This document shows, in pieces, positions 1 to 13,066 of a DNA stretch of 47,214 nucleotides (position 1 is its first letter; every line of letters starts with the position of its first letter). The notes below the pieces were generated by a model. That model ran no database searches and was not told the origin of the DNA. It worked only from the letters and a program-made list of their open reading frames with translations. The DNA is from Candidatus Gastranaerophilales bacterium (GTDB lineage: Bacteria > Cyanobacteriota > Vampirovibrionia > Gastranaerophilales > Gastranaerophilaceae), in the NCBI GenBank assembly GCA_944322725.1, contig CALUPU010000012.1:1-47214 (forward strand), in the 5' to 3' direction. A program made the translations under genes and the position numbers.

Positions 1-77
1 GTGGCCGAGTGGCTAAAGGCGACAGACTGTAAATCTGTTCCCGCGAGGGTACGGTGGTTCGAATCCACCCCTGCCCA
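1..77 (+). tRNA. tRNA-Tyr (anticodon GTA), 5' end cut by the window
   Basis: The anticodon loop CTGTAAATC carries GTA, so the gene decodes Tyr. It has the long variable arm of a class II tRNA, a T arm at 53-69 (GGTGG, TTCGAAT, CCACC) and an acceptor 3' strand CCTGCCC at 70-76 with discriminator A at 77. The first base of the window is tRNA position 7, so six bases of the 5' acceptor strand are missing. CCA is not encoded. The gene is followed by a hairpin and T run. A large serine recombinase frame lies antisense across it, which suggests that this tRNA end is an integration site. Confidence 0.95.
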
Positions 78-1544
78 GTCTTTTTTAAAACATAATCCTT
101 TGACTAATACGTCAAAGGGTTTTTTGTAATCATAGCTTAATTTTCCATCTTTTAAAGTTAAGTTCGAAAGTACAGAATTTATAATTTTTCTTTTATATTC
201 GTCTGTTTCTCCTAAATACAACTCTGGAGCCATTTGTGCTAGTTCGAGAACTGAATTCATTTGCTGCATAGTTTTTAATTCTGCACGATCAAATGCTTCA
301 ATGTATGTGTTATATCTTTCTATTTTTATAGAAATTTTGTTATGCTGTTCATTCCAAAATTCTTCTGTAATTTTACCGTCTAATTTATCAAAATACATTT
401 TTTCAAGATAGTTTTTGCATTTATTTTTTTCTATTTGAAAATGAGAGATTCTTTCTTTTGAAAACTGTTTGTTCTTTTCGTTCGATATTCTTATTGCTTT
501 TACTATCCATTCTCTATGCTTGGGACTCACTTTAATAGCTTTTATTGCTTCATATATTTGTGCTTCAAGTTGTTCTTGTTTTGTGTATTTATTTTGTGAA
601 CATTTAACTTCTTTTTTTCCCAATGAACATTTGTAATATATATATTTTTGTTTTTTAATGTCTCCACAAACTGAACACCCACATTCTCCGCACTTAATTA
701 AGCCATTGAATAAAAATTCTTTAGAATTATACTTAGGCTTATTTGCTTTTCTGTACGCAAGTTGTACTTCTTCAAAAAGTTCATTCGAAACTATTGGTTC
801 ATGTTTGCCCTTATATAAGATTCCTCCATATACAAACATGCCTTTATATAAAGGGTTTTTTAACAAATTATCTAGATGACTTGTTCCTATTTTAGGCTTG
901 TAAGGTTTATAAAAATAACCTTGTTCATATAATTCTTTACGCACTGCTTCTAATGACATTGTACCAATTGCATATAATTCAAATGCTTTTTTGACAAATT
1001 TTGCCTCTTCTTCCTTAATAACAAGATTTTTGTTATCTCCATAAACTCTTGTATAACCATAAGGTGGCTGTGTAGGCCAGTAACCTTGTTCTGCTTTTTC
1101 TCTCAAACCTTTCTTAACTTCATTTGACAAATTTCTAGGCATCATTGCTGATATACCCGTATTTATTGTAAACATGAAAATCTCAAGTGGGTTAGATTGC
1201 TTATTTAATATCATTGAATCTTTTACAAGATGAATATTTACATTGGTAGTCTTTGCCAAATTTATAATAATTGCAAAGTCAATTTCATTTCTCATTAATC
1301 TATCATTTTTTTCAACTAATATATGTTTAATACTTTTATTTTTTTCCACAAAAGAAATCATTGATTGAAATTCTGCTCGTCCTGCATCTTTTGCCGATAT
1401 ATTTTCTGAAAAATTTTTAACAATTTGATAATTATGCTTTTTAGCATATTCTTGTAAAAATTTTTCTTGTGCCGGTATAGAAAACCCGCTTTTTGCTTGC
1501 TCTTGACTTGATACTCTTGTATAAATGACAGCTTTTTCAGGCAT
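1..1544 (-). CDS. Large serine recombinase (integrase), 3' end not closed in window
   Basis: The frame opens at an ATG with AAGGAG five bases upstream and reads 514 codons to the window edge without a stop. Residues 1-150 are a resolvase-type catalytic domain with YTRVSSQEQ, the nucleophile being Ser12. A Recombinase domain follows (about 165-275), then a zinc ribbon with Cys285, Cys288, Cys290, Cys293 and two later cysteines, and a coiled-coil region, as in phage and ICE large serine integrases. The expected C-terminus is reached near base 90, yet the frame runs on antisense through tRNA-Tyr, so the last ~30 codons are host tRNA sequence. It presumably integrates and excises the element. The true stop lies outside the window. 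Confidence 0.93.
   Translation of the reverse strand, partial: MPEKAVIYTRVSSQEQAKSGFSIPAQEKFLQEYAKKHNYQIVKNFSENISAKDAGRAEFQSMISFVEKNKSIKHILVEKNDRLMRNEIDFAIIINLAKTTNVNIHLVKDSMILNKQSNPLEIFMFTINTGISAMMPRNLSNEVKKGLREKAEQGYWPTQPPYGYTRVYGDNKNLVIKEEEAKFVKKAFELYAIGTMSLEAVRKELYEQGYFYKPYKPKIGTSHLDNLLKNPLYKGMFVYGGILYKGKHEPIVSNELFEEVQLAYRKANKPKYNSKEFLFNGLIKCGECGCSVCGDIKKQKYIYYKCSLGKKEVKCSQNKYTKQEQLEAQIYEAIKAIKVSPKHREWIVKAIRISNEKNKQFSKERISHFQIEKNKCKNYLEKMYFDKLDGKITEEFWNEQHNKISIKIERYNTYIEAFDRAELKTMQQMNSVLELAQMAPELYLGETDEYKRKIINSVLSNLTLKDGKLSYDYKKPFDVLVKGLCFKKDWAGVDSNHRTLAGTDLQSVAFSHSA
97..125 (+). terminator. Rho-independent terminator after tRNA-Tyr
   Basis: An eight-base stem CCTTTGAC/GTCAAAGG with a six-base loop is followed by G and six T. 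It fits termination of tRNA-Tyr transcription. It lies inside the antisense coding frame of the recombinase, so it either arrived with the element or serves both strands. Confidence 0.7.
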
Positions 1545-1719
1545 AATAACTCCTTTAAATTAAAACTATTTTATGATTATTTATAGAGTTAATCAATGGG
1601 TTTTAAGTAAAAAAGTATTCAAAATATATTTTGGAGGGGTTAAAAGAGCTTACAGAGGGTGCAAATAAAATGTTTGAAAATTTATAATATAATGAAATAT
1701 CATAATAAGGAATATTTGT

Positions 1720-2058
1720 ATGTTAAAAGGTCAACTAAATCAAAGAGAAAAAGAGTTCTTAGCTGCACTTGATGATGGTATTGAAAAATCTAAAGAAAGA
1801 GGATATGTACCAACACGTTTTATTGAGTTAAGAAAAAAAGTTAAAGATAGTAATGATATTCAAGATTTGGTCAAAAGACTGCTTTTTAAAGAGCACTCTG
1901 ATGGAGTTACTAAAATGTGGGAATTATCATTATTAAATGAAACAATGGAAGCAATAATTTGTGAACGTTTTCACGATTTATTTGATAAAAATATTGTTAA
2001 TTGTTGTAGAAATAAATTAATAAAATTAGGTTATAGTCCTAAAGAATTTCAAAAGTAG
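1720..2058 (+). CDS. Hypothetical 112-residue helical protein
   Basis: A small, charged, mostly helical protein without signal peptide or membrane segment. I do not recognise a family. It starts downstream of an AT-rich region with a weak AAGGAA ribosome site. Its last 20 bases overlap tail-to-tail with the Xre regulator on the other strand. Its position next to the recombinase and a regulator suggests an element-borne accessory or regulatory protein, but nothing in the sequence shows a function. Confidence 0.6.
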   Translation: MLKGQLNQREKEFLAALDDGIEKSKERGYVPTRFIELRKKVKDSNDIQDLVKRLLFKEHSDGVTKMWELSLLNETMEAIICERFHDLFDKNIVNCCRNKLIKLGYSPKEFQK

Positions 2059-2311
2059 TAATATCCTTTAATTCTAATCCTAAGTAGTGCGCAATTGTAA
2101 AAAGACAATAAATTGACGGACTCCTTTTACCTTGTTCGATAGCCCCTATATACGTACGGTCAACACCAATCTCAAAGGCTAATTTTTCCTGCGAAATACC
2201 ATTTTGTTGTCGCAGTTCTTTAACTCTTGCTCCAAGAGCCTTTAAAATTTTACGTTTCAACCTTATTTTTGTCTTCATAAGGTTTATTATCCATCTCTTA
2301 CTATTTGTCAT
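2039..2311 (-). CDS. Xre-family helix-turn-helix regulator
   Basis: A 90-residue protein with a Cro/CI-type HTH spanning about residues 24-85: LGARVKELRQQNGISQEKLA, then VDRTYIGAIEQGKRSP, the usual five-helix fold with recognition helix TYIGAIEQG. An internal Met12 could be the real start, since neither start has a strong ribosome site. It is transcribed away from the secreted repeat protein at 2472, so the 2312-2471 gap holds divergent control sequences it may bind. Likely the repressor of element genes. Confidence 0.88.
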   Translation of the reverse strand: MTNSKRWIINLMKTKIRLKRKILKALGARVKELRQQNGISQEKLAFEIGVDRTYIGAIEQGKRSPSIYCLFTIAHYLGLELKDITTFEIL

Positions 2312-2471: not shown

Positions 2472-2714
2472 ATGCAAAAGTTATTTCTTGTAATTTTAAC
2501 AATATCGATTTTTGCAAATATAACTTTTGCAGAAACTATATATAAATATGACAAATACGGCAAAAAAATCGGAAGTTACAAAACAAACCAAAGTAATGGA
2601 ACAACAACAATTTATGATAAGTACGGTAAAAAGACCGGTTCGCTAAAGACAAATTCTTCTGGTTTGACAATACAATATGATAAATATGGTAAAAAAGTTG
2701 GAAGCTATAAGTAG
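2472..2714 (+). CDS. Small secreted protein with three YDKYGKK repeats
   Basis: Eighty residues. Residues 1-20 form a signal peptide (MQKLFLV, hydrophobic core, TFA/ET cleavage). The mature ~60 residues are three near-identical units built on YDKYGKK followed by a Gly-Ser and KTN turn (IGSYKTN, TGSLKTN, VGSYK). The ribosome site is TAGGAGAAAGT. The mature chain is strongly basic and rich in Tyr and Lys. The repeat is reminiscent of short YD-type or beta-solenoid repeats, but I do not recognise a family. It is probably exported to the periplasm or surface; its role is unknown. It lies just upstream of two zinc-ribbon membrane proteins and may be co-expressed with them. Confidence 0.75.
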   Translation: MQKLFLVILTISIFANITFAETIYKYDKYGKKIGSYKTNQSNGTTTIYDKYGKKTGSLKTNSSGLTIQYDKYGKKVGSYK

Positions 2715-2788: not shown

Positions 2789-3631
2789 ATGGAAATAGAA
2801 GTATTTATTTTTTTCGTAATTCTTATAATATGTGTTATAATAGCTATTTACCATTTTCTTTTTAAGGAAATAGATAAAGTTGATACACCAATAAATCCAA
2901 TACCTAAAATAAAAAAATCTCCAGATATACAAGAAGATAAAATAGAACATTCTATTGAATATTCTGTTACCGATGATAAAGAGACTAGTGAAGAATCTAT
3001 AGCTAAGTCAGACAACCTTGCTATAGTCGATATATTTTGCCCAAATTGCGGTACCAAATTATATTCTGATTCTTTATTTTGTACCAATTGTGGAACTCCG
3101 GTTAAAGAAGAATTCTCCACAATCTGCCCAAAATGCAAGAAAGAAAATGATAAGGGAAGTAAATTTTGCAAATATTGTGGTGAATCTTTGTCTATAAAAA
3201 CACAACAATTAAACAAAAAATCATATGAACATAATAATATTTATTCAGCTGAACAGTCAACAAATACCGTCCCAACAAAGAAATGCCCTTACTGTTTAAA
3301 AGAATTGCCCATAAATGCTAAAAAATGCACCAGTTGTGGCGAATGGGTAGAAAATAGACCTCAATATGGCTGCTACAGCATTCTGTCAATAATAGTTTTC
3401 TTAATTACTTTATTCATTTCATATAATTTCAACAATGATTGGTTTGCCTCATTTTTGATAGCAATATTTGGAGCTATTGGTTTGTGGATATATTTTCTAC
3501 CGTCGTGGATTGCTGAAATAAAGCAAAATCCATACTCTACAGCAATTTTTGTGATTAATTTACTTTTTGGCTGGAGTATAATAGGTTGGTTTATTGCCTT
3601 AGTATGGTCTTTTTCAAGTGGGAGGCGATAA
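2789..3631 (+). CDS. Membrane protein with three zinc ribbons and a C-terminal Imm (superinfection immunity)-like domain
   Basis: A 280-residue protein. A membrane segment at residues 4-25 is followed by a polar linker, three CxxC..CxxC zinc ribbons (Cys84/87/98/101, Cys113/116/127/130, Cys166/169/180/183) and three hydrophobic segments from about 197 to 276. The C-terminal part, with YFLPSWIAEI, FVINLLFGWS and IIGWFIALVWSF, closely follows the pattern I know for the superinfection immunity (Imm, PF14373) family, related to phage T4 Imm, which blocks DNA entry. This assignment is from memory of the motif. The next gene follows after two bases, so the two are an operon. The likely role is exclusion of incoming phage. 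Confidence 0.75.
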   Translation: MEIEVFIFFVILIICVIIAIYHFLFKEIDKVDTPINPIPKIKKSPDIQEDKIEHSIEYSVTDDKETSEESIAKSDNLAIVDIFCPNCGTKLYSDSLFCTNCGTPVKEEFSTICPKCKKENDKGSKFCKYCGESLSIKTQQLNKKSYEHNNIYSAEQSTNTVPTKKCPYCLKELPINAKKCTSCGEWVENRPQYGCYSILSIIVFLITLFISYNFNNDWFASFLIAIFGAIGLWIYFLPSWIAEIKQNPYSTAIFVINLLFGWSIIGWFIALVWSFSSGRR

Positions 3632-3633
3632 TT

Positions 3634-5340
3634 ATGATTTGCAAGAACTGTGGAAACGAAGTAAATAAAGAACAAAAATATTGTTCTAAGTGCGGAGAAA
3701 AGATATGTTTTGACAAATTTGTCATTTCTCAAAAAGCAATTATATTCATTTGTTCTATAGCTGCCATTGCATTCTTGCTTGTATCCCCAAAACTCTATAC
3801 AACCGCTAGTGAATATAAATATTATCTCGATAATGTCAAAAACAAAGATATTACTTTAATATATGATTTTTCTGATTATGAAAATTCTATTGATTATTTT
3901 AAAAAGTTAGCTAAATATACAAAATTAGCTTTAAAATATGGAAATTTGACCAAAGAAGACAAATTAAAGATATTTAAAAATTATAGAGAATACATAAATA
4001 CAATTGCTCAAAATTCGGATAGTTTTTACGTTTATCAGGGAGAAACAATAGAACAAGGTGATGAACAGAGAGAAAACTATTGTAAGCAAATTATCGATTC
4101 TGATATAAATTATCAAGATTTTAAATGTTGTTTGGCTGGTGATGGTGCTTACAATCAATTATTAAATTTCAGAAAAGAATTTGAAAAAACAGGTCTTTAT
4201 CCATCAACATATTTTGGAATTAATTTTTTCTTTGTCGAAGATTCTGAATTTCTTTACAACACTTTTTCAAAATATTTACCGGAAGATTGGCAAGAATTTT
4301 TAAAAATTCGTTCACAAGAAAAACTACCTTATATGGGAGATGGCAGTTCGGTTTTAAAACCTTCTGTTTTAGGAGATAGAATTGCACGATGGGAGGGATT
4401 TATAAAAAAATATCCTTATTGGGACAACTCAAAAGAAGTCCATTTGTTGCTGCATGATTATAGCGAGGAATATGTTTGGGGTAAATATCATAAATTGTAT
4501 ATATCAGATACACAATATAGATTAGACAAAAAGTGGGTAGATGAGTACAATCGTTATATTTTCAAATATCCAGATTCCAAATTTGTTCCTTTTCTACAAA
4601 AAATTATTTCGAACCCTGATAAATTCGCAAATAGTTTATATAAAATTGATTGGTATCCATACTTGAAAGCTTATTATGAACAGTTTCCAGAAGAAGAACC
4701 ATATTTTGAAATGCCAGTACAACAAAAAACACAAAAAGAAGATACCGATATAGACGAACAGAACAATAGTTATATTTACTCTATATCAACCAAAATCTGG
4801 AAAATTAAACAAGCTAATCAAATAATAAATCAAGATGAAATTGAACTAAAAGAAAATCCCCCCGAAGGCAGTATGGGCTATACAACGTTTTCTATCATTA
4901 GAAAAGATAATCAATCACAAGAAATTTTTTCACCTTCTGATGTTCCAATAGTATTTATTAAAAATAATAATTTATACTATTTAGGTATAACTGAAAATAA
5001 ATTTTATAGCGTTAATTTTGAAAATAATAATTTTCAATCAAAAGAGCTTTCAATAAATGAAGTTAAACAATTATTCCCTGACTATGAAATCATCACATGT
5101 GCAGATAGAAAGAATGATATAATAAACTTTAATCACAGTTCTAAAAATAAGTATATGCTTTTATCTTGTAGCTATAATACAAAGTATATGTTTTCTAGTG
5201 ATGACCCAACATTTTCTAAGGAAAAATTTAATAATACTTTTAGTATAAAAAATAAAAATGCTTGGGTTTTATTTGCACCATTTGGTTCTGAACAAGATTG
5301 CGATGAATATGAAAAATGTTTATATATTCATATTAATTAA
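3634..5340 (+). CDS. Zinc-ribbon, single-pass membrane protein of unknown function
   Basis: A 568-residue protein starting at the ATG two bases after the Imm-like gene, with GGAGG eight bases upstream. An upstream in-frame ATG at 3586 overlaps the previous gene and has no comparable ribosome site. Residues 3-21 form a zinc ribbon (CKNCG, CSKCG), residues 34-55 a membrane segment, and the remaining ~510 residues a soluble Tyr/Asp/Lys-rich domain I do not recognise. The ribbon-membrane-large-domain layout and tight coupling suggest that it works with the Imm-like protein at the inner membrane. The side on which the large domain lies cannot be decided from the sequence. Confidence 0.8.
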   Translation: MICKNCGNEVNKEQKYCSKCGEKICFDKFVISQKAIIFICSIAAIAFLLVSPKLYTTASEYKYYLDNVKNKDITLIYDFSDYENSIDYFKKLAKYTKLALKYGNLTKEDKLKIFKNYREYINTIAQNSDSFYVYQGETIEQGDEQRENYCKQIIDSDINYQDFKCCLAGDGAYNQLLNFRKEFEKTGLYPSTYFGINFFFVEDSEFLYNTFSKYLPEDWQEFLKIRSQEKLPYMGDGSSVLKPSVLGDRIARWEGFIKKYPYWDNSKEVHLLLHDYSEEYVWGKYHKLYISDTQYRLDKKWVDEYNRYIFKYPDSKFVPFLQKIISNPDKFANSLYKIDWYPYLKAYYEQFPEEEPYFEMPVQQKTQKEDTDIDEQNNSYIYSISTKIWKIKQANQIINQDEIELKENPPEGSMGYTTFSIIRKDNQSQEIFSPSDVPIVFIKNNNLYYLGITENKFYSVNFENNNFQSKELSINEVKQLFPDYEIITCADRKNDIINFNHSSKNKYMLLSCSYNTKYMFSSDDPTFSKEKFNNTFSIKNKNAWVLFAPFGSEQDCDEYEKCLYIHIN

Positions 5341-5575
5341 AAAGCATTTGAAAATATTTGTTTAATTCCTTGATATCGCAGTTTTCGGGTATATTAATAT
5401 CTTTCCACTGATACAAAGCCTGTTGTGCTTCCTTTTTATTACGTTTTGCATACAAATGTTTTTTATCCTGTAATTGCAACTTTCTTTGTTTTAGCCTATC
5501 CATCTCTTTGTTATGACGGGCTTTTTCGTTTTGAATTTGTTGTTCTACATTGTTTATTTCTTGCTGTATATCCAT
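5333..5575 (-). CDS. Small coiled-coil protein
   Basis: Eighty residues. Residues 1-50 are an uninterrupted, highly charged helix rich in Gln, Lys and Glu (heptad-like IQQEINNVEQQIQNEKA), followed by a short acidic tail. The ribosome site AAAGGAG is strong. It converges on and overlaps the last eight bases of the gene ending at 5340. No family is recognised. It may pair with the adjacent membrane-anchored protein at 5613-6164, which is transcribed in the same direction just upstream. Confidence 0.6.
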   Translation of the reverse strand: MDIQQEINNVEQQIQNEKARHNKEMDRLKQRKLQLQDKKHLYAKRNKKEAQQALYQWKDINIPENCDIKELNKYFQMLFN

Positions 5576-5612
5576 TTTTGCTCCTTTTATTTAATATAAA
5601 AAGAGACTTAAC

Positions 5613-6164
5613 TTATTTAATACTTTTTAATTGTTCAAACAAAGCACAAAGTTTTTTATATGTAGGAAGTAAATTACATACTTTTGAGTTGTATAAACAA
5701 TAATTTACAGAAGCCATATCCTCTTTGTATTTTTCTGTAAACTCAACACCGGGTAAAGCATTTTCATATTTCTTTTCAATTTCTTCAGAAAATTTTATTG
5801 CCTCATTGTTAGATTTTAAGCAATCAATAAAAAATTTTGCTGTTGTATATATAGAAATTATTGTATCTCTAAGTTTGTCGTTATTAATCCTGCCTATTTT
5901 AGAACAATTACTATGATAAATATAAAAATAGTCAGTATCTAAAGGGTATTTATATAATAATGGTGCATCGTCATCTGTAATTTTCTTGCCAAATTCTTCG
6001 CAGAAAATATATTCTAAGTTTTTAATTTCAGACTTAATCGCCTTTATAGTTGCTTTTGTTTCATTCTCTTCTTTTTTTCGTGAAATATGAAGATTAACGG
6101 CATTTGTAATTAATGCACCAATCAAGCCGCTCACTAGAGCTAAAGTAATAGATTGCATGTCCAA
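5613..6164 (-). CDS. Membrane-anchored helical protein, unknown function
   Basis: About 183 residues. A single N-terminal membrane helix (ALVSGLIGALITNAVNLH) is followed by RKKEE and a charged coiled-coil stretch, then a soluble helical domain. Such N-terminal anchors are common in small mobile-element proteins, but I cannot name a family. The start may be TTG at 6164 (AGGAAG five bases upstream) or ATG at 6158. It is the first gene of a minus-strand pair with the coiled-coil protein at 5333-5575. Confidence 0.65.
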   Translation of the reverse strand: MDMQSITLALVSGLIGALITNAVNLHISRKKEENETKATIKAIKSEIKNLEYIFCEEFGKKITDDDAPLLYKYPLDTDYFYIYHSNCSKIGRINNDKLRDTIISIYTTAKFFIDCLKSNNEAIKFSEEIEKKYENALPGVEFTEKYKEDMASVNYCLYNSKVCNLLPTYKKLCALFEQLKSIK

Positions 6165-6265
6165 TTTTTCTTCCTATCTTTTTCTGCATTTTAGCATACT
6201 ACTTATCAATTAAAAACGTTCGTTAAAGATTTATATACCAATAAAACAAAAACGGTCGTAATTTG

Positions 6266-6311
6266 TTTTACGAGAGCGTAAAGTAAAAATATAGTTTATA
6301 CGTTTTTACTT
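6266..6311 (+). promoter_or_regulatory. Inverted repeats upstream of the resolvase gene, possible res site or operator
   Basis: Two nested dyads lie directly before the resolvase. TTTACG (6267-6272) pairs with CGTAAA (6277-6282) over a four-base loop. AAGTAAAAA (6281-6289) pairs perfectly with TTTTTACTT (6303-6311). Further related CGT-containing segments lie at 6213-6260. Small serine recombinases usually act at, and are repressed from, dyad subsites just upstream of their own gene, so this is a candidate res site. Confidence 0.45.
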
Positions 6312-6325
6312 GAAAGGCAGGTATT

Positions 6326-6928
6326 ATGAGCGTTTTTGGCTATATTAGAGTAAGCACAATCGAACAAGATACATCAAAAAACAGGCATGCAATCTTAGAC
6401 TTTGTAAACAACCGTAAATTAGGTAATGTCGAATTTATCGAAGAACACATCACCGGTAAACTTCATTTTAAAGACAGAAAACTAGGCAAGCTATTAAAAA
6501 AAATGCAATCAGGTGATATTTTAATTGTTCCTGAGCTTTCACGTATTGCACGTTCAGTATCACAAATTTTTGAGGTTATTGATTATACAAGCAAAAACGG
6601 CATCATTCTTTATTCTTTAAAAGAAAACTTTTCCAACAACGACAAAACAATTACATCAACAATCACCTCAACTGTTTTTGCGCTTGTTGCACAAATAGAG
6701 CGTGATTTAATAAGCATACGCACAAAAGAAGCACTTAATGCTAAAAAATTAAGCGGTGCAAAGCTCGGCAGACCTCGTGGTAAAGGTAAATCAAAACTTG
6801 ATATACACAAAGATAAAATCTTACAGTTAATAAGATTAAAAGTACCCAAAACAATCATTGCAGAACAGTTTAATACCTCTGTACCCAATTTATACAATTA
6901 TTTAAAACATATTGAGCAGGGTTCATAA
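6326..6928 (+). CDS. Small serine recombinase (resolvase/invertase family)
   Basis: A 200-residue protein of normal resolvase length. The catalytic domain covers about 1-140 with YIRVST (nucleophile Ser10), LIVPELSRIARS and the long E helix QIERDLISIRTKEAL. A basic GRPRGKGK linker leads to a C-terminal helix-turn-helix (KTIIAEQFNTSVPNLYNYL). The ribosome site is AAAGGCAGG. Its stop overlaps the start of the next gene (TAATG), so the two are translationally coupled. It may resolve dimers, invert a segment or act as a regulator of the element. It is distinct from the large integrase at the left end. Confidence 0.92.
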   Translation: MSVFGYIRVSTIEQDTSKNRHAILDFVNNRKLGNVEFIEEHITGKLHFKDRKLGKLLKKMQSGDILIVPELSRIARSVSQIFEVIDYTSKNGIILYSLKENFSNNDKTITSTITSTVFALVAQIERDLISIRTKEALNAKKLSGAKLGRPRGKGKSKLDIHKDKILQLIRLKVPKTIIAEQFNTSVPNLYNYLKHIEQGS

Positions 6929-7473
6929 TGCAAAAAAGTTTTAAAATAAGCACAACAAGTTTTGAGATAAATAAATTAATTACATCAACACAGCTTTTTT
7001 CCAAAATAAAGCTTTCTGTTTCATCTCGTTTAGTTTTACGCTGTATTGTTGATTACTGGAACTTTAAAACAGGTGTAGCTTATCCTACACAAACAACAAT
7101 TGCAAAATGCACAGGCTTAACAGATGTTGCTGTAAGTTCTGCTATAAAACAACTTTTACAACAAAACATAATTACAGTAACAAAACATCACAAGCGTAAC
7201 TATTACAGATTTACCCTAAAATTTTTTACCTGTCTAAATCTCACACCTAAAATCATTTACGGAGATACACCAAAAATTTTGAGTAATATTGCTCAACAAA
7301 ATTTGGACAATAATATATTAAAAGATAATAAAAATACTACGTTTTCTTCTCTCTCTTCATCTATTGAGGAGTTTTCGCCTGTTGAGTTTGCTAAAATTAC
7401 TATTTCTAAATTACAGGGGAATCCTCTCTTCAAGCGCAAAGTAGAAGAACTAAAAACTAAATACAATCTTTAG
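6928..7473 (+). CDS. Winged-helix protein of the replication-initiator-like HTH_36 type
   Basis: 181 residues. The region about 30-95 reads as a winged helix: SSRLVLRCIVDYW, AYPTQTTIAKCTGLTDVAVS, AIKQLLQQNIITVTKHHKR, the order seen in HTH_36 domains of plasmid and phage replication or regulatory proteins. The C-terminal half is Ser/Lys-rich and unassigned. It shares a TAATG overlap with the resolvase gene. It could initiate replication of the excised element or regulate it; the sequence alone does not decide. Confidence 0.7.
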   Translation: MQKSFKISTTSFEINKLITSTQLFSKIKLSVSSRLVLRCIVDYWNFKTGVAYPTQTTIAKCTGLTDVAVSSAIKQLLQQNIITVTKHHKRNYYRFTLKFFTCLNLTPKIIYGDTPKILSNIAQQNLDNNILKDNKNTTFSSLSSSIEEFSPVEFAKITISKLQGNPLFKRKVEELKTKYNL

Positions 7474-7758: not shown

Positions 7759-9660
7759 TTAAAAAACACATGAAGATTGTTTGTTTTCTTCTATATCAAG
7801 TTCCAAAGCGTCAACAAACTTTGCGATTTCACTTATTTGTACTAGTGGAATAAATATTCCATGACAACTTTTACCTGAATAATTTGCAGTATCTTTTTTA
7901 CAGCCGTTGTCGATAAGTTTTTTTATATAATAATCAAAATCAAGCGGTTTTTTGTTGTCGTAAAGTCTTTTGTACATAACTTTAAATTGCGTTGAAATTG
8001 TGCTTTGTCTTTTGGGTGTTTTTATATGCAAACATTGTTGATGAATACCTCCGTCGACTTTTTTATAATCGGTATTGTATTTTATAATTTTTCTCTCTAC
8101 AAGTTCTCTCAAAACAGTAAAAAATTTTTCAATTTCTGTCTCATTAAAGTTCTTTTCATAATTTTCTATAAAATTATTTAGCTTTTCTTTAATTAATTTA
8201 GTGCAAAATTTATCCGACAGACCAGTTAATCTTATAAAATATTTCAGTCCAGCTATAGCAATAGCAACATTTATTTTGGAACGTTCATCTTTAATCTTTT
8301 GTATTAATTCACCGTTTCTAATATGTTCAATACTCTGTAAAACTTCTGTTACTGAAAAATCTTCAATGATTTTTTTCGTTATTAATGATAAAGAGCTTAC
8401 CAAAGAATTAAGTTTTTTTGCTTTGTCAATATTAAAATTTTCTTTATCCCATACTGTAAATAGCGTTCGGTTAAAGCTTTCTGTTTTATTTAAAAACATT
8501 GTATTTGTATTTATTATTAAACTTGTATTGACTTCCGTAGTTATTGTTTTTTCACCGCTAGAATTCATTCTCTTTCTTACTCTCTGTTCTTGTATCGGTT
8601 TTATTAAGCACTCCTCAATTTTATTTTCGAGTTCATCTCCAACTTCATCAAGCAATACCGGAATCCCTGAAAATTGTTTTGCAGTGTTTAAAAGTGCTTT
8701 AAACGTATCATTGCCCGAACATATAATATTTTTATCAAGACCATAAAGACCAGCAATAATATTAAGAATATTGCTTTTACCACTAGTTGATTCACCAAAT
8801 AGCACAGCAACAGGAAAGCCATGAAACTCTGAATGGATTTCTTTAATAAACGGAAACATTAAAGCAAAACCGACAATTAGAAATGGCTCAATCACGTTAT
8901 TATAAGCTTTTTGTAGAGTATAAAACAAAATAAGACAAATTTTCTGTAAAAGCTCTTTGCTTTCAATACAATATTCTCTCTGAATTTCTTGTATAAATAA
9001 TTCAGCTTCCTCTGATAACAACAGTTCTGTACAAAATCGAGGACGACAAGAGGCGTATTTATAAAGTCTTAACTCTGTTTTGCTATTATCATTATCTTTA
9101 TATTTTATAATTTTATTCGTAGTTACAAAATACTTTTGCTCTTGAATGGAGTTATATCCTGCTTTTACAAACTCAATTATCTCATCAACTTCTGATTTAC
9201 TGATATTTTCATTCATAAAGTCGGCAAATTCTTCATCAGTCCATTTGCTATTATTGAAACAGATTTCATCAAGTTTTGATAGAACTTTACGTTTATCAAT
9301 AATTTCAGAACACAGACATGAAAATTTGCCTTGTGATTCTTCCCTTTTAATAACTTCCAACTCAAAAAAATATTTTTTTGAAGAGTCTTGAATATCTTGT
9401 AACTGCAAAATTTGTGCTGACAAAGTTAAACAATAATCCGAAAGCCGTTTTATGTATATTTGCTTTGATTTTGAGTTATATCCGATTTTATAAATCCCAT
9501 CTTTCATTTGATAAAAGCCTAACGCTTTTTTAAGTTCATTTAAGTCTTCTTCTTTAATATTTTCAATACCTAAAGTGAAGTTTGTTCTGATTTCGCCTAC
9601 ACAAATTGGTTCTTGTTGCAAAATTTGTTGTAAAATAGATTTTGTATTATTTATCGACAT
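7759..9660 (-). CDS. DUF927-like AAA+ ATPase/helicase of the element
   Basis: 633 residues. An N-terminal region of about 260 residues is unassigned. The core has a Walker A GESTSGKS (289-296), a Walker B IPVLLDEVGDE (336-339 for LLDE), an Arg-rich stretch and a sensor-like SLIINTNT. This order matches the DUF927 helicase-like group found in phages, plasmids and integrative elements, often beside or instead of a primase. The ribosome site is AAAGGGA. It is followed by a terminator. Likely the replicative or mobilisation ATPase of the element. No separate primase or relaxase is visible. The family name rests on motif layout, not a search. Confidence 0.75.
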   Translation of the reverse strand: MSINNTKSILQQILQQEPICVGEIRTNFTLGIENIKEEDLNELKKALGFYQMKDGIYKIGYNSKSKQIYIKRLSDYCLTLSAQILQLQDIQDSSKKYFFELEVIKREESQGKFSCLCSEIIDKRKVLSKLDEICFNNSKWTDEEFADFMNENISKSEVDEIIEFVKAGYNSIQEQKYFVTTNKIIKYKDNDNSKTELRLYKYASCRPRFCTELLLSEEAELFIQEIQREYCIESKELLQKICLILFYTLQKAYNNVIEPFLIVGFALMFPFIKEIHSEFHGFPVAVLFGESTSGKSNILNIIAGLYGLDKNIICSGNDTFKALLNTAKQFSGIPVLLDEVGDELENKIEECLIKPIQEQRVRKRMNSSGEKTITTEVNTSLIINTNTMFLNKTESFNRTLFTVWDKENFNIDKAKKLNSLVSSLSLITKKIIEDFSVTEVLQSIEHIRNGELIQKIKDERSKINVAIAIAGLKYFIRLTGLSDKFCTKLIKEKLNNFIENYEKNFNETEIEKFFTVLRELVERKIIKYNTDYKKVDGGIHQQCLHIKTPKRQSTISTQFKVMYKRLYDNKKPLDFDYYIKKLIDNGCKKDTANYSGKSCHGIFIPLVQISEIAKFVDALELDIEENKQSSCVF

Positions 9661-11153: not shown

Positions 11154-12371
11154 ATGATTTTAAATTTTAAGGTAGAAAATTATTTAAGTATATTAGATTT
11201 ACAAGAAATTGATTTTACAACAAATAAAATTTTTAATAGTAGTACAGCTGAACTAAAAAACAACTTATTGATTAACAAAATAAATTGCATGGTTGGTGCA
11301 AATGGCTCAGGAAAAACAAAACTATTAAATGCAATGTGCTTTATTCTTTGGCTTATGGAACAATCATATTATAAAGGTAATATAAAAACCATTTTACCTT
11401 TGTCAACACATAAATTAGCACAAAATAAACCTACAAAACTGGAATTGATATTTGAGCAAAATAACAAAATATTTAAAATACAATTTGAAATATTTGAAAA
11501 TGTTATTTTAAAAGAAAAATTAAGTATTAAAGCTACAAATAAATTTAGCAGAGTTTATGAAGCAACAAGACAAGCAGACAAATTTAGCGTTATTTTTTCA
11601 GAACACTTTCCTGCTATTAGTAAAAAAAGTAGAGACGAATTTGCTCCAAGGAAAAATGCAAGTTTTTTCTCTTTTTTATTAGGATTGGGCTTGCTTTCTA
11701 AAATAGGTATTGAGCATTTGTCTTTTAAATGTAATTTTAATTATATTGCTGGTATTGATATAGTACCACATATTATCAATGCATTTAATCTTTCCGAATT
11801 TTTAATAGAAAATAAAAATTTACAAAGACAAATTTTAAAATATTTAAAAGCATTTGATTTTGGAATTCAAGGTATTTCACAAAAAACTAAAAAAGCTGAA
11901 ATTGTTGCAGTAAATGGAAATATAGAGAACAAAATGCAGCAAGATTTGCTAATTTTTACACATGGCAACAATGAACATAATTTTGATATATTAATTACAG
12001 ATGAATCGGAAGGTACAATTAAAGCTTTAGACTTATTATGTAGGTTTCTTTCTGTATTTAACACAGGTTGTGTTGTAATAATTGATGAAATTGAAAGTAG
12101 TATTCATTCTGACTTAGTTGAAGTATTGATTGAAATGTTCGCAGATCACAAACTTAACCAACGCAATGCACAATTAATATTTTCAACACATCAACCTTTA
12201 TTTTTAAAGGATAGAGATAAATCACAAATTTTTATTGTCGAAAAAGAAAATAAAATTAACACAGAAATATATAGATTAGATGAGATTGAAGGTGTTAGAA
12301 ATGATGAAAATTTCTACACAAAATACTTAGCTGGCAGATATGGCGGTAAACCAAATATTAAAGGAATATAG
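11154..12371 (+). CDS. AAA ATPase of an AbiL/RloA-like abortive infection pair
   Basis: 405 residues. It starts ILNFKVENYLSI, the usual opening of RecF/OLD-like ATPases that recognise DNA or phage proteins. Walker A GANGSGKT (48-55), an ABC-type signature ESEGT (284-288), Walker B VVIIDE (307-312) and STHQP (344-348) are all present, so it should be an active ABC-type ATPase. The ribosome site is GGAG. The partner RloB-like gene follows after two bases. Known AbiLi/RloA proteins pair with RloB in the same way. Predicted role: a phage-triggered sensor that unleashes the partner. No nuclease domain is fused to it. Confidence 0.85.
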   Translation: MILNFKVENYLSILDLQEIDFTTNKIFNSSTAELKNNLLINKINCMVGANGSGKTKLLNAMCFILWLMEQSYYKGNIKTILPLSTHKLAQNKPTKLELIFEQNNKIFKIQFEIFENVILKEKLSIKATNKFSRVYEATRQADKFSVIFSEHFPAISKKSRDEFAPRKNASFFSFLLGLGLLSKIGIEHLSFKCNFNYIAGIDIVPHIINAFNLSEFLIENKNLQRQILKYLKAFDFGIQGISQKTKKAEIVAVNGNIENKMQQDLLIFTHGNNEHNFDILITDESEGTIKALDLLCRFLSVFNTGCVVIIDEIESSIHSDLVEVLIEMFADHKLNQRNAQLIFSTHQPLFLKDRDKSQIFIVEKENKINTEIYRLDEIEGVRNDENFYTKYLAGRYGGKPNIKGI

Positions 12372-12373
12372 TA

Positions 12374-12997
12374 TTGGGCAAAGCAAAGAAAAAAGTCAAA
12401 AAAACTAGGTATATTTCACCCGAAGGGTACAGTGAAATGTATTTTATTGAGTTTTTAAGAGATTTATATGAATGTGACAAAAATAACATAATAATAGCAA
12501 TGCCTAAAACACCCCCAGGAGGAAATCCAGATGTAATTATCGCTGGAGCATTAAAAAGTAATCATTATGATTATTCCCTTGCTTTTCTTGATGAAGATAA
12601 AGAAATTGATATAAAATCTGATTATAATACCATTTTTCAATTAAAAAAGTGTTGGCTTAATGATGATGTAAACATAGATATACCTTTACGAAACTTACAA
12701 GAACTTAATATAAGAAAAAGAAAACCCATATTAATAGTTTCACAACCAGTAATGTTCGAAGGTTTCATGATACGTATTTTAGGAAAAAAATTACCAGAAT
12801 TAAAAACGCCATTTACTGATATGGAATGTGCAAAATATAATAAACATGTATTAAAATCAGCATTTAAAGGAATTATACATAATACTGGAAGAGAAAATGA
12901 AATAGAATTTTATAAAAATAATTTAACTATAAATTATCTTGAACAAAAAGCAAAAGAAATTCCAGAATTAGCATTACTACTAGCTGCATTTAAATGA
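12374..12997 (+). CDS. RloB-like (AbiLii) protein, putative Toprim-type effector
   Basis: 207 residues starting at TTG with AAGGAA seven bases upstream and two bases after the ATPase stop. After a basic N-terminus, SPEGYSEMYFIEFL matches the Glu-containing first motif of RloB/Toprim-like proteins, and SLAFLDEDKEID the acidic D-x-D motif, suggesting metal-dependent cleavage of nucleic acid. The length matches RloB (about 200-230). With the ATPase it forms an AbiL-like two-gene anti-phage system at the right end of the element, the usual cargo position. Confidence 0.8.
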   Translation: MGKAKKKVKKTRYISPEGYSEMYFIEFLRDLYECDKNNIIIAMPKTPPGGNPDVIIAGALKSNHYDYSLAFLDEDKEIDIKSDYNTIFQLKKCWLNDDVNIDIPLRNLQELNIRKRKPILIVSQPVMFEGFMIRILGKKLPELKTPFTDMECAKYNKHVLKSAFKGIIHNTGRENEIEFYKNNLTINYLEQKAKEIPELALLLAAFK

Positions 12998-13034
12998 ATT
13001 TTATTTATTTTATGCAATCTGTTGAAGGAAAAAA

Positions 13035-13063
13035 GTTCGAAATTCTTCCACCAGACTCCACCA
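13035..13063 (+). repeat. tRNA/tmRNA 3'-end-like remnant at the right element boundary
   Basis: GTTCGAA (13035-13041) repeats the T-loop of tRNA-Tyr (57-63). Further on, TTCCACCAGACTCCACCA (13046-13063) reads as a T-stem 3' strand, acceptor strand, discriminator and encoded CCA, as in a tmRNA or tRNA 3' end. It is followed by a terminator. No D or anticodon arm lies upstream, so it is a fragment. The acceptor strand AGACTCC does not match tRNA-Tyr, so it is not a copy of the left tRNA end. It probably marks the host side of attR. Confidence 0.55.
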
Positions 13064-13066
13064 TTT

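Follow-up and report, generated by a model that had tools for sequence, protein, structure and literature searches.

A zinc-ribbon/Imm protein with an anchored exported partner: a candidate exclusion module on a defence-bearing integrative element of Gastranaerophilales

The window analysed here, a 47,214-nucleotide stretch of the 1.9 Mb genome of a Candidatus Gastranaerophilales bacterium, encodes two adjacent proteins, P1 and P2, that are best explained as a membrane module on a defence-bearing integrative element, made up of a zinc-ribbon (ZnR)-fused Imm protein and an anchored, exported partner. There is good support for such a membrane module of Imm and an anchored partner. Homology and genomic context further suggest, tentatively and with a likelihood somewhat short of even, that the pair excludes phage or other incoming DNA, and the module may be the counterpart of phage exclusion on a bacterial mobile element. 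The Imm domain itself is of a known kind, and its fusions to zinc ribbons are recurrent and apparently undescribed in the literature searched. A first-pass annotation had presented the two genes as a possible new superinfection-exclusion system. The novelty lies in the coupled, partner-swapping Imm module on defence-carrying elements and not in the fusion, as ribbon–Imm proteins are already encoded in many IMG/VR contigs.

P1 joins three zinc ribbons to an Imm-family domain

P1 (280 aa; positions 2789–3631, forward strand, as are all of its parts) was delineated by its open reading frame, by Pfam and PHROG profiles and by tblastn against phage genes. Its reading frame is intact from the ATG at 2789 to the stop codon at 3629–3631. 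An N-terminal hydrophobic segment (residues 3–21; 2795–2851), assigned by hydropathy, precedes exactly three four-cysteine ribbons. Ribbon 1 (C84/87/98/101; 3038–3091) and ribbon 2 (C113/116/127/130; 3125–3178) are supported by Pfam and the cysteine pattern, and ribbon 3 (C166/169/180/183; 3284–3337) by the UPF0547/Zn_ribbon types; across P1, the ribbon profiles PF12773 and PF13240 score E 1e-18 and E 8e-17, respectively. The Imm domain (residues 234–275; 3488–3613) lies at the C-terminus and was identified by profile and alignment. The first-pass annotation had read three ribbons and an Imm C-terminus from the sequence pattern, and this architecture is borne out: the search against PF14373 that it had recommended gave an Imm match at E 2e-15 (56.8 bits, curated cut-off 27.9) covering the full profile, positions 1–42.

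P1 also matches PHROG 1039, 'immunity to superinfection', at E 5e-17. In tblastn searches of phage genes, P1 aligned with T4-type Imm (39% identity over 59 aa, E 1e-5) and with a Klebsiella T4-like Imm (51% identity over 56 aa, E 6e-9), and genuine T-even Imm proteins are matched by the same PF14373 profile. Because of these direct matches to phage imm genes and the shared profile, the Imm label of P1 is more than an inherited annotation, and the strong profile and phage alignments rule out a chance or weak motif. When P1 is aligned with other Imm sequences, residues Y235, P238, N257, G261, W267 and W273 are invariant, and alignment and hydropathy show that P1 has the Imm hairpin signature Y-[FL]-P ... 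GW..GW..ALVW. Three hydrophobic segments follow that of residues 3–21, the last two corresponding to the Imm domain, with hydropathy as the sole basis for these segments. On sequence grounds, P1 carries a true Imm-family domain that is a relative of T4 Imm, and this homology, seen directly by tblastn to T4-type imm genes, argues for exclusion by the pair. A sequence search of solved structures with P1 returned only zinc-ribbon proteins and chance matches, and the Imm part of the profile had no match among solved structures.

P1 and the T-even phage Imm proteins (PF14373) share a homologous C-terminal membrane domain. Unlike T-even Imm, P1 is 280 aa long, bears three zinc ribbons plus a further hydrophobic segment at its N-terminus, and is encoded on a bacterial integrative element, where it is coupled to P2.

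P2 combines a ribbon, a membrane helix and two exported domains

P2 (568 aa; 3634–5340, forward strand, as are its parts) is a zinc-ribbon, one-TM, exported protein defined by its open reading frame, Pfam and a structural model. Its ribbon (C3–C20; 3640–3693; PF13240, E 9e-6) is followed by a membrane helix at residues 36–54 (3739–3795), assigned by hydropathy and contained within helix 33–67 of the model. A helical exported domain (residues 82–350; 3877–4683) is supported by the model and by tblastn to Fusobacterium relatives, and a C-terminal beta domain (residues 376–568; 4759–5337) by the model and by its occurrence as a common stand-alone secreted protein. The AlphaFold model of P2 (pLDDT 76, pTM 0.54) contains the ribbon, a long TM helix, a helical part extending to about residue 350 and the beta domain from residue 376; modelled alone, the beta domain reached pLDDT 86 and pTM 0.82. 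The ribbon and single membrane helix ascribed to P2 by the first-pass annotation were correct. The unknown domain of about 510 residues that it also described proved to be two separate domains, helical and beta, and a single unknown domain can be ruled out, with relatives found in host chromosomes and in Fusobacterium.

Structure searches with P2 and with its beta domain gave no significant fold match, a result that counts against exclusion by the pair. The likeness of the C-terminal half of the beta domain to the chagasin (Ig-like) fold (Z 6.1–6.7) and that of its first half to a propeller blade both lie within the usual noise, and a sequence search of solved structures with P2 gave no matches. 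A spackle or lysozyme-inhibitor fold was also considered, and the fold searches yielded nothing significant for either; P2 likewise has no Pfam or PHROG match to spackle, a relation that fold searches alone cannot exclude. The reading of P2 as a phage protein was rejected after searches of 50,697 phage records and of IMG/VR gave no match.

Relatives of P2 were found in the host lineage. The profile of its beta domain matches 165 of 239 host-family genomes, in which the domain is widespread as a stand-alone exported protein. Full-length relatives that share the P2 order of parts are found repeatedly at chromosomal positions in genera g34 and g69. Six of these, all from g34, were inspected; they neighbour genes such as rimO, def/fmt and ispE, and an Imm gene lay beside none of the six. 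As full-length relatives are chromosomal, the six inspected lack an Imm gene beside them and the C-domain is commonly secreted, the membership of P2 in a dedicated exclusion family, as first suggested, is unsupported.

The same observations weigh against exclusion by the pair and favour another explanation, that P1 and P2 are a general envelope cassette. Its ribbon-anchored proteins would sense or maintain the envelope as accessory cargo and would take no part in exclusion, and Imm would be a short two-helix membrane domain common to phage and bacteria. This explanation is possible, though on the improbable side. Also in its favour, the P2 helical domain is related, over part of its length, to Fusobacterium exported proteins that occur in tandem arrays (tblastn 2e-7, plasmid collection). 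The anatomy of P2 also resembles the staphylococcal TcaA type in its order of N-terminal ribbon, TM helix and exported domain, and weak, sub-threshold TcaA-type matches were obtained at L068, a related locus described below. Unlike P2, TcaA-type proteins carry other exported domains, and the NCBIfam TcaA equivalog does not match P2.

One Fusobacterium locus (L211, 3605–8422) encodes three tandem exported proteins, two of about 540 aa and one lipoprotein-like, that share the P2 helical domain. Its 2.1 Mb source record is labelled as a plasmid and looks chromosomal.

P1 and P2 are coupled

The stop codon of P1 is separated from the ATG of P2 at 3634 by 2 nt, the spacing given in the first-pass annotation, and the GGGAGG ribosome-binding sequence of P2 is located within the end of P1. 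Across the whole 1.9 Mb genome, PF13240 has three matches at E ≤ 0.001, a count that leaves out weaker ribbon types, and all three lie in P1 and P2. Since PF13240 ribbons occur nowhere else in the genome at this threshold, the adjacency of two ribbon genes is not expected by chance.

The 2-nt spacing and the confinement of these ribbons to P1 and P2 argue for exclusion by the pair and against the proposal that P1 alone excludes, like T4 Imm, with P2 an adjoining passenger envelope gene. This proposal, which is decidedly unlikely, is consistent with T4 Imm being a single small protein, with the existence of P2 relatives without Imm and with the narrow occurrence of the exact P1–P2 combination, found here and in altered form at L068, while the remaining ZnR-Imm loci have different partners. 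It is further opposed by the anchored or exported neighbour that recurs throughout the P1 clade and by the joint loss of Imm and partner from two sister elements (L246 and L236).

L068, from isolate Lapin-004, appears from its sequence to be the nearest thing to a second P1–P2 pair, albeit in altered form. There, a gene for a multi-ribbon Imm protein precedes a ribbon-TM-WG gene by 1 nt, and the latter runs on, across a frame change, into a P2-type beta domain (profile E 6e-8). Lack of any Imm match and homologues never found side by side would have told against the first-pass annotation; P1 has the match, and at L068 the relatives are 1 nt apart, with the C-domain in another frame. The ribbon-TM-WG gene and the beta domain together (4790–6492) look like one gene split by the frame change.

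The host element carries anti-phage genes

The left end of the element is marked by a tRNA-Tyr at the contig edge. A large serine recombinase (3–1559, reverse strand) abuts this tRNA at the contig end and has an open 3′ end. Its frame crosses the tRNA-Tyr antisense and reaches the contig end without a stop codon, so the true C-terminus of the recombinase may depend on integration. An HTH regulator of the Cro/C1 type (2039–2311, reverse strand; PF01381, E 4e-15) is divergent from the module and occupies the same place in sister elements. It is followed by a gene for a small exported protein of 80 aa (2472–2714, forward strand), the first of a probable operon, which takes the position of a 162-aa exported gene in the sister elements.

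Beyond P2 lie a resolvase/invertase-type serine recombinase (6326–6928, forward strand; PF00239), which serves as the marker of the element family, a Rep-like HTH_36 protein (6928–7473, forward strand) and a DUF927 helicase/primase-like ATPase (7759–9660, reverse strand), the last two identified by Pfam and PHROG. The statement that the element bears anti-phage genes holds, in the form of an AbiL-type pair: an AbiLi-type AAA ATPase (11154–12371, forward strand; PADLOC AbiLi, E 6e-66) and a 207-aa partner in the AbiLii position (12374–12997, forward strand) with no profile match. PADLOC models matched P1 and P2 with 0 families for either, which counts against exclusion by the pair.

The right end of the element probably lies between 12997 and 13453; a direct-repeat att site was looked for and not found. 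Near this likely end, a CCA-ended stretch (13033–13066) resembles the 3′ end of a tRNA or tmRNA; it matches nothing in Rfam and occurs only once in the genome.

Sister elements exchange cargo and swap the partner of Imm

Elements marked by the resolvase occur in 18 of the 99 genomes searched, and sister elements have a shared backbone with two variable slots. In the closest of them, a defence slot lies between the HTH gene and the resolvase. It holds PARIS AriA/AriB in genome G021, SIR2-STAND in G004, HNH in G123 and, in G011, a large protein with weak nucleoside-transferase and AAA matches. AbiE, type I and type IIG restriction and a Hachiman-like pair occur in more distant members of the resolvase family. 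Two of the elements, those of G021 and G123, come from different genera and are 97.7% identical over 6.8 kb, yet one carries PARIS and the other HNH, which indicates recent transfer and cargo exchange. The defence genes of the element family and the PARIS/HNH exchange, together with a patchy distribution of ZnR-Imm (11 of 286 genomes), argue for exclusion by the pair.

Across loci L233–L250, many defence systems (AbiE, type I/IIG restriction, Hachiman-like, SIR2-STAND and PARIS) are found near the resolvase. The 97.7% identical pair in which PARIS and HNH are swapped at one slot corresponds to loci L052 (1–12001) and L056 (1–11001).

The second slot, which receives Imm, follows the 162-aa exported protein in the sister elements. 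Its occupants in G021, G123 and G011 are ZnR-Imm, an exported protein of 256 aa with a TM anchor, and a WG-repeat protein. G004 has ZnR-Imm there, along with a TPR protein and a ribbon-TM protein of 330 aa that is a homologue of the 256-aa protein (33% identity, E 1e-38). In G019 and G014 the slot contains the WG protein only, with both ZnR-Imm and the TM partner absent; the WG proteins of G014 and G123 are 56% identical. The HTH and exported block adjoining the slot is 99.3% identical between G014 (L246) and G123 (L250); L250 has Imm and partner, whereas both ZnR-Imm and the TM partner are missing from L246 and L236. Comparison of the slots of G014 and G019 with that of G123 thus indicates that these elements have either both Imm and its anchored partner or neither. 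Between elements that carry it, ZnR-Imm is kept and the partner is swapped. A point against exclusion by the pair is that the slot of G034 and G015 (L233 and L240), in the same element family, holds ribbon-TM exported proteins without Imm.

A different target has also to be weighed, in that the module might stop a second related integrative element or plasmid, rather than phages. The sharing of ZnR-Imm, recombinase, resolvase and Rep by diverged elements, next to a defence slot that varies, would fit such entry exclusion of its own kind, and a partner that differs between elements is what would be expected of a specificity part. The possibility is nonetheless a long shot, as the element has no identified conjugation machinery and sister elements without the pair exist (L246 and L236). 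Under a more general proposal, rather unlikely as a whole, the loci would form a modular, element-borne exclusion class in which a constant ZnR-Imm core docks interchangeable anchored exported partners, some of them ribbon-bearing, and the partner sets which incoming phage or element is recognised.

Distribution and phylogeny of Imm proteins

A tree was built from 117 Imm domains over 57 columns, in which the starred branches are trusted and the deep branches are not. P1 groups with the proteins of the sister elements (support 97/82), within a wider group (97/84) that also includes L068, L025, L074 and one Acidobacteria protein. A group of chromosomal stand-alone Imm proteins (99/96) and the T-even Imm proteins both fall apart from the P1 group. 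An exported or anchored gene adjoins Imm at seven of seven Gastranaerophilales loci of the P1 clade, and a divergent HTH gene is present at six of the seven, L068 being the locus where it was not seen. The constant exported or anchored neighbour and the joint absence at L246 and L236 argue for exclusion by the pair.

Strong ZnR-Imm proteins are rare and patchy: of 286 genomes of the order, 11 encode one at a threshold of E ≤ 1e-20. Of 117 family genomes, 22 encode PF14373 in some form, frequently as stand-alone proteins of 67–93 aa in chromosomal positions, and in many relatives the neighbouring genes are those of a CBS-domain transporter, NagZ or TsaB/TsaE. Such ordinary chromosomal surroundings count against exclusion by the pair, and stand-alone PF14373 genes in housekeeping positions favour the envelope cassette, as does the existence of ribbon-TM2/ribbon-TM/ribbon-Imm operons. 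Against the envelope cassette, the P1 clade is mobile, patchy and constantly beside variable defence genes, and many Imm relatives occur in viral contigs and T-even phages.

The name 'superinfection immunity' may be misleading for stand-alone Imm proteins beside NagZ or TsaB/TsaE. In L015, L016, L021 and L026, a stand-alone Imm gene lies beside a CBS-domain transporter gene and NagZ, and in L018 and L028 beside TsaB/TsaE; the proteins of these six loci are 76–85 aa long.

In IMG/VR, 157 stretches encode an Imm relative, and 17 of 70 distinct Imm proteins have at least one ribbon-like cysteine pattern. These fusions resemble P1 in combining a ribbon pattern with Imm and differ from it in falling outside the P1 clade in the tree. 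The ribbon-TM2, ribbon-TM and ribbon-Imm genes form a conserved group at L069 (4990–6555) and also at L071, L072 and L055; in several loci this group lies downstream of a divergent HTH gene.

Proposed mechanism and comparison with known systems

It is proposed that the ribbons are cytoplasmic and would serve to join P1 to P2, or one copy of P1 to another. The hairpin of the Imm domain would act at the inner membrane, at the point where the DNA of a phage or competing element crosses, a site of action also proposed for T4 Imm. The exported part of P2 would lie beyond the inner membrane, where it could detect an arriving injection apparatus or stand in its way. This role of P2 is modelled on the periplasmic Sp protein of T4, which complements Imm. 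The exported partner may decide what is blocked, and the likely outcome would be that incoming DNA is excluded.

Kiwa, Zorya and other membrane defence systems are multi-part, membrane-associated anti-phage modules. P1 and P2 resemble them in being a multi-part membrane module, and differ in having no PADLOC match.

T4 Imm and Sp (spackle) resemble P1 and P2 in pairing an inner-membrane Imm with a second protein that acts outside the inner membrane. Unlike Sp, P2 is membrane-anchored and ribbon-bearing, and it has no detectable relation to Sp. T4 imm and sp block genome translocation and leave adsorption unaffected (PMC6832632, PMC11436027), and their joint action on translocation (PMC6832632) argues for exclusion by the pair. 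T4 Imm was described decades ago, and its mechanism is still called hard to understand (PMC6832632). A ZnR-Imm whose partner varies between near-identical elements offers a natural genetic handle on Imm, one that would reveal its working partner and whether mobile elements trade exclusion proteins as they do their defence repertoire. If the role is other than exclusion, the label 'superinfection immunity protein' is misleading on many bacterial proteins.

A literature search found no phage phenotype for bacterial or ribbon-fused Imm, a point against exclusion by the pair, and no paper that names PF14373 or pairs 'superinfection immunity protein' with 'zinc ribbon'. The imm and sp genes of T4 itself are not known to be adjacent. 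In the record of Mosigvirus AlbertHofmann (L198, 518–1118), the spackle gene directly follows imm.
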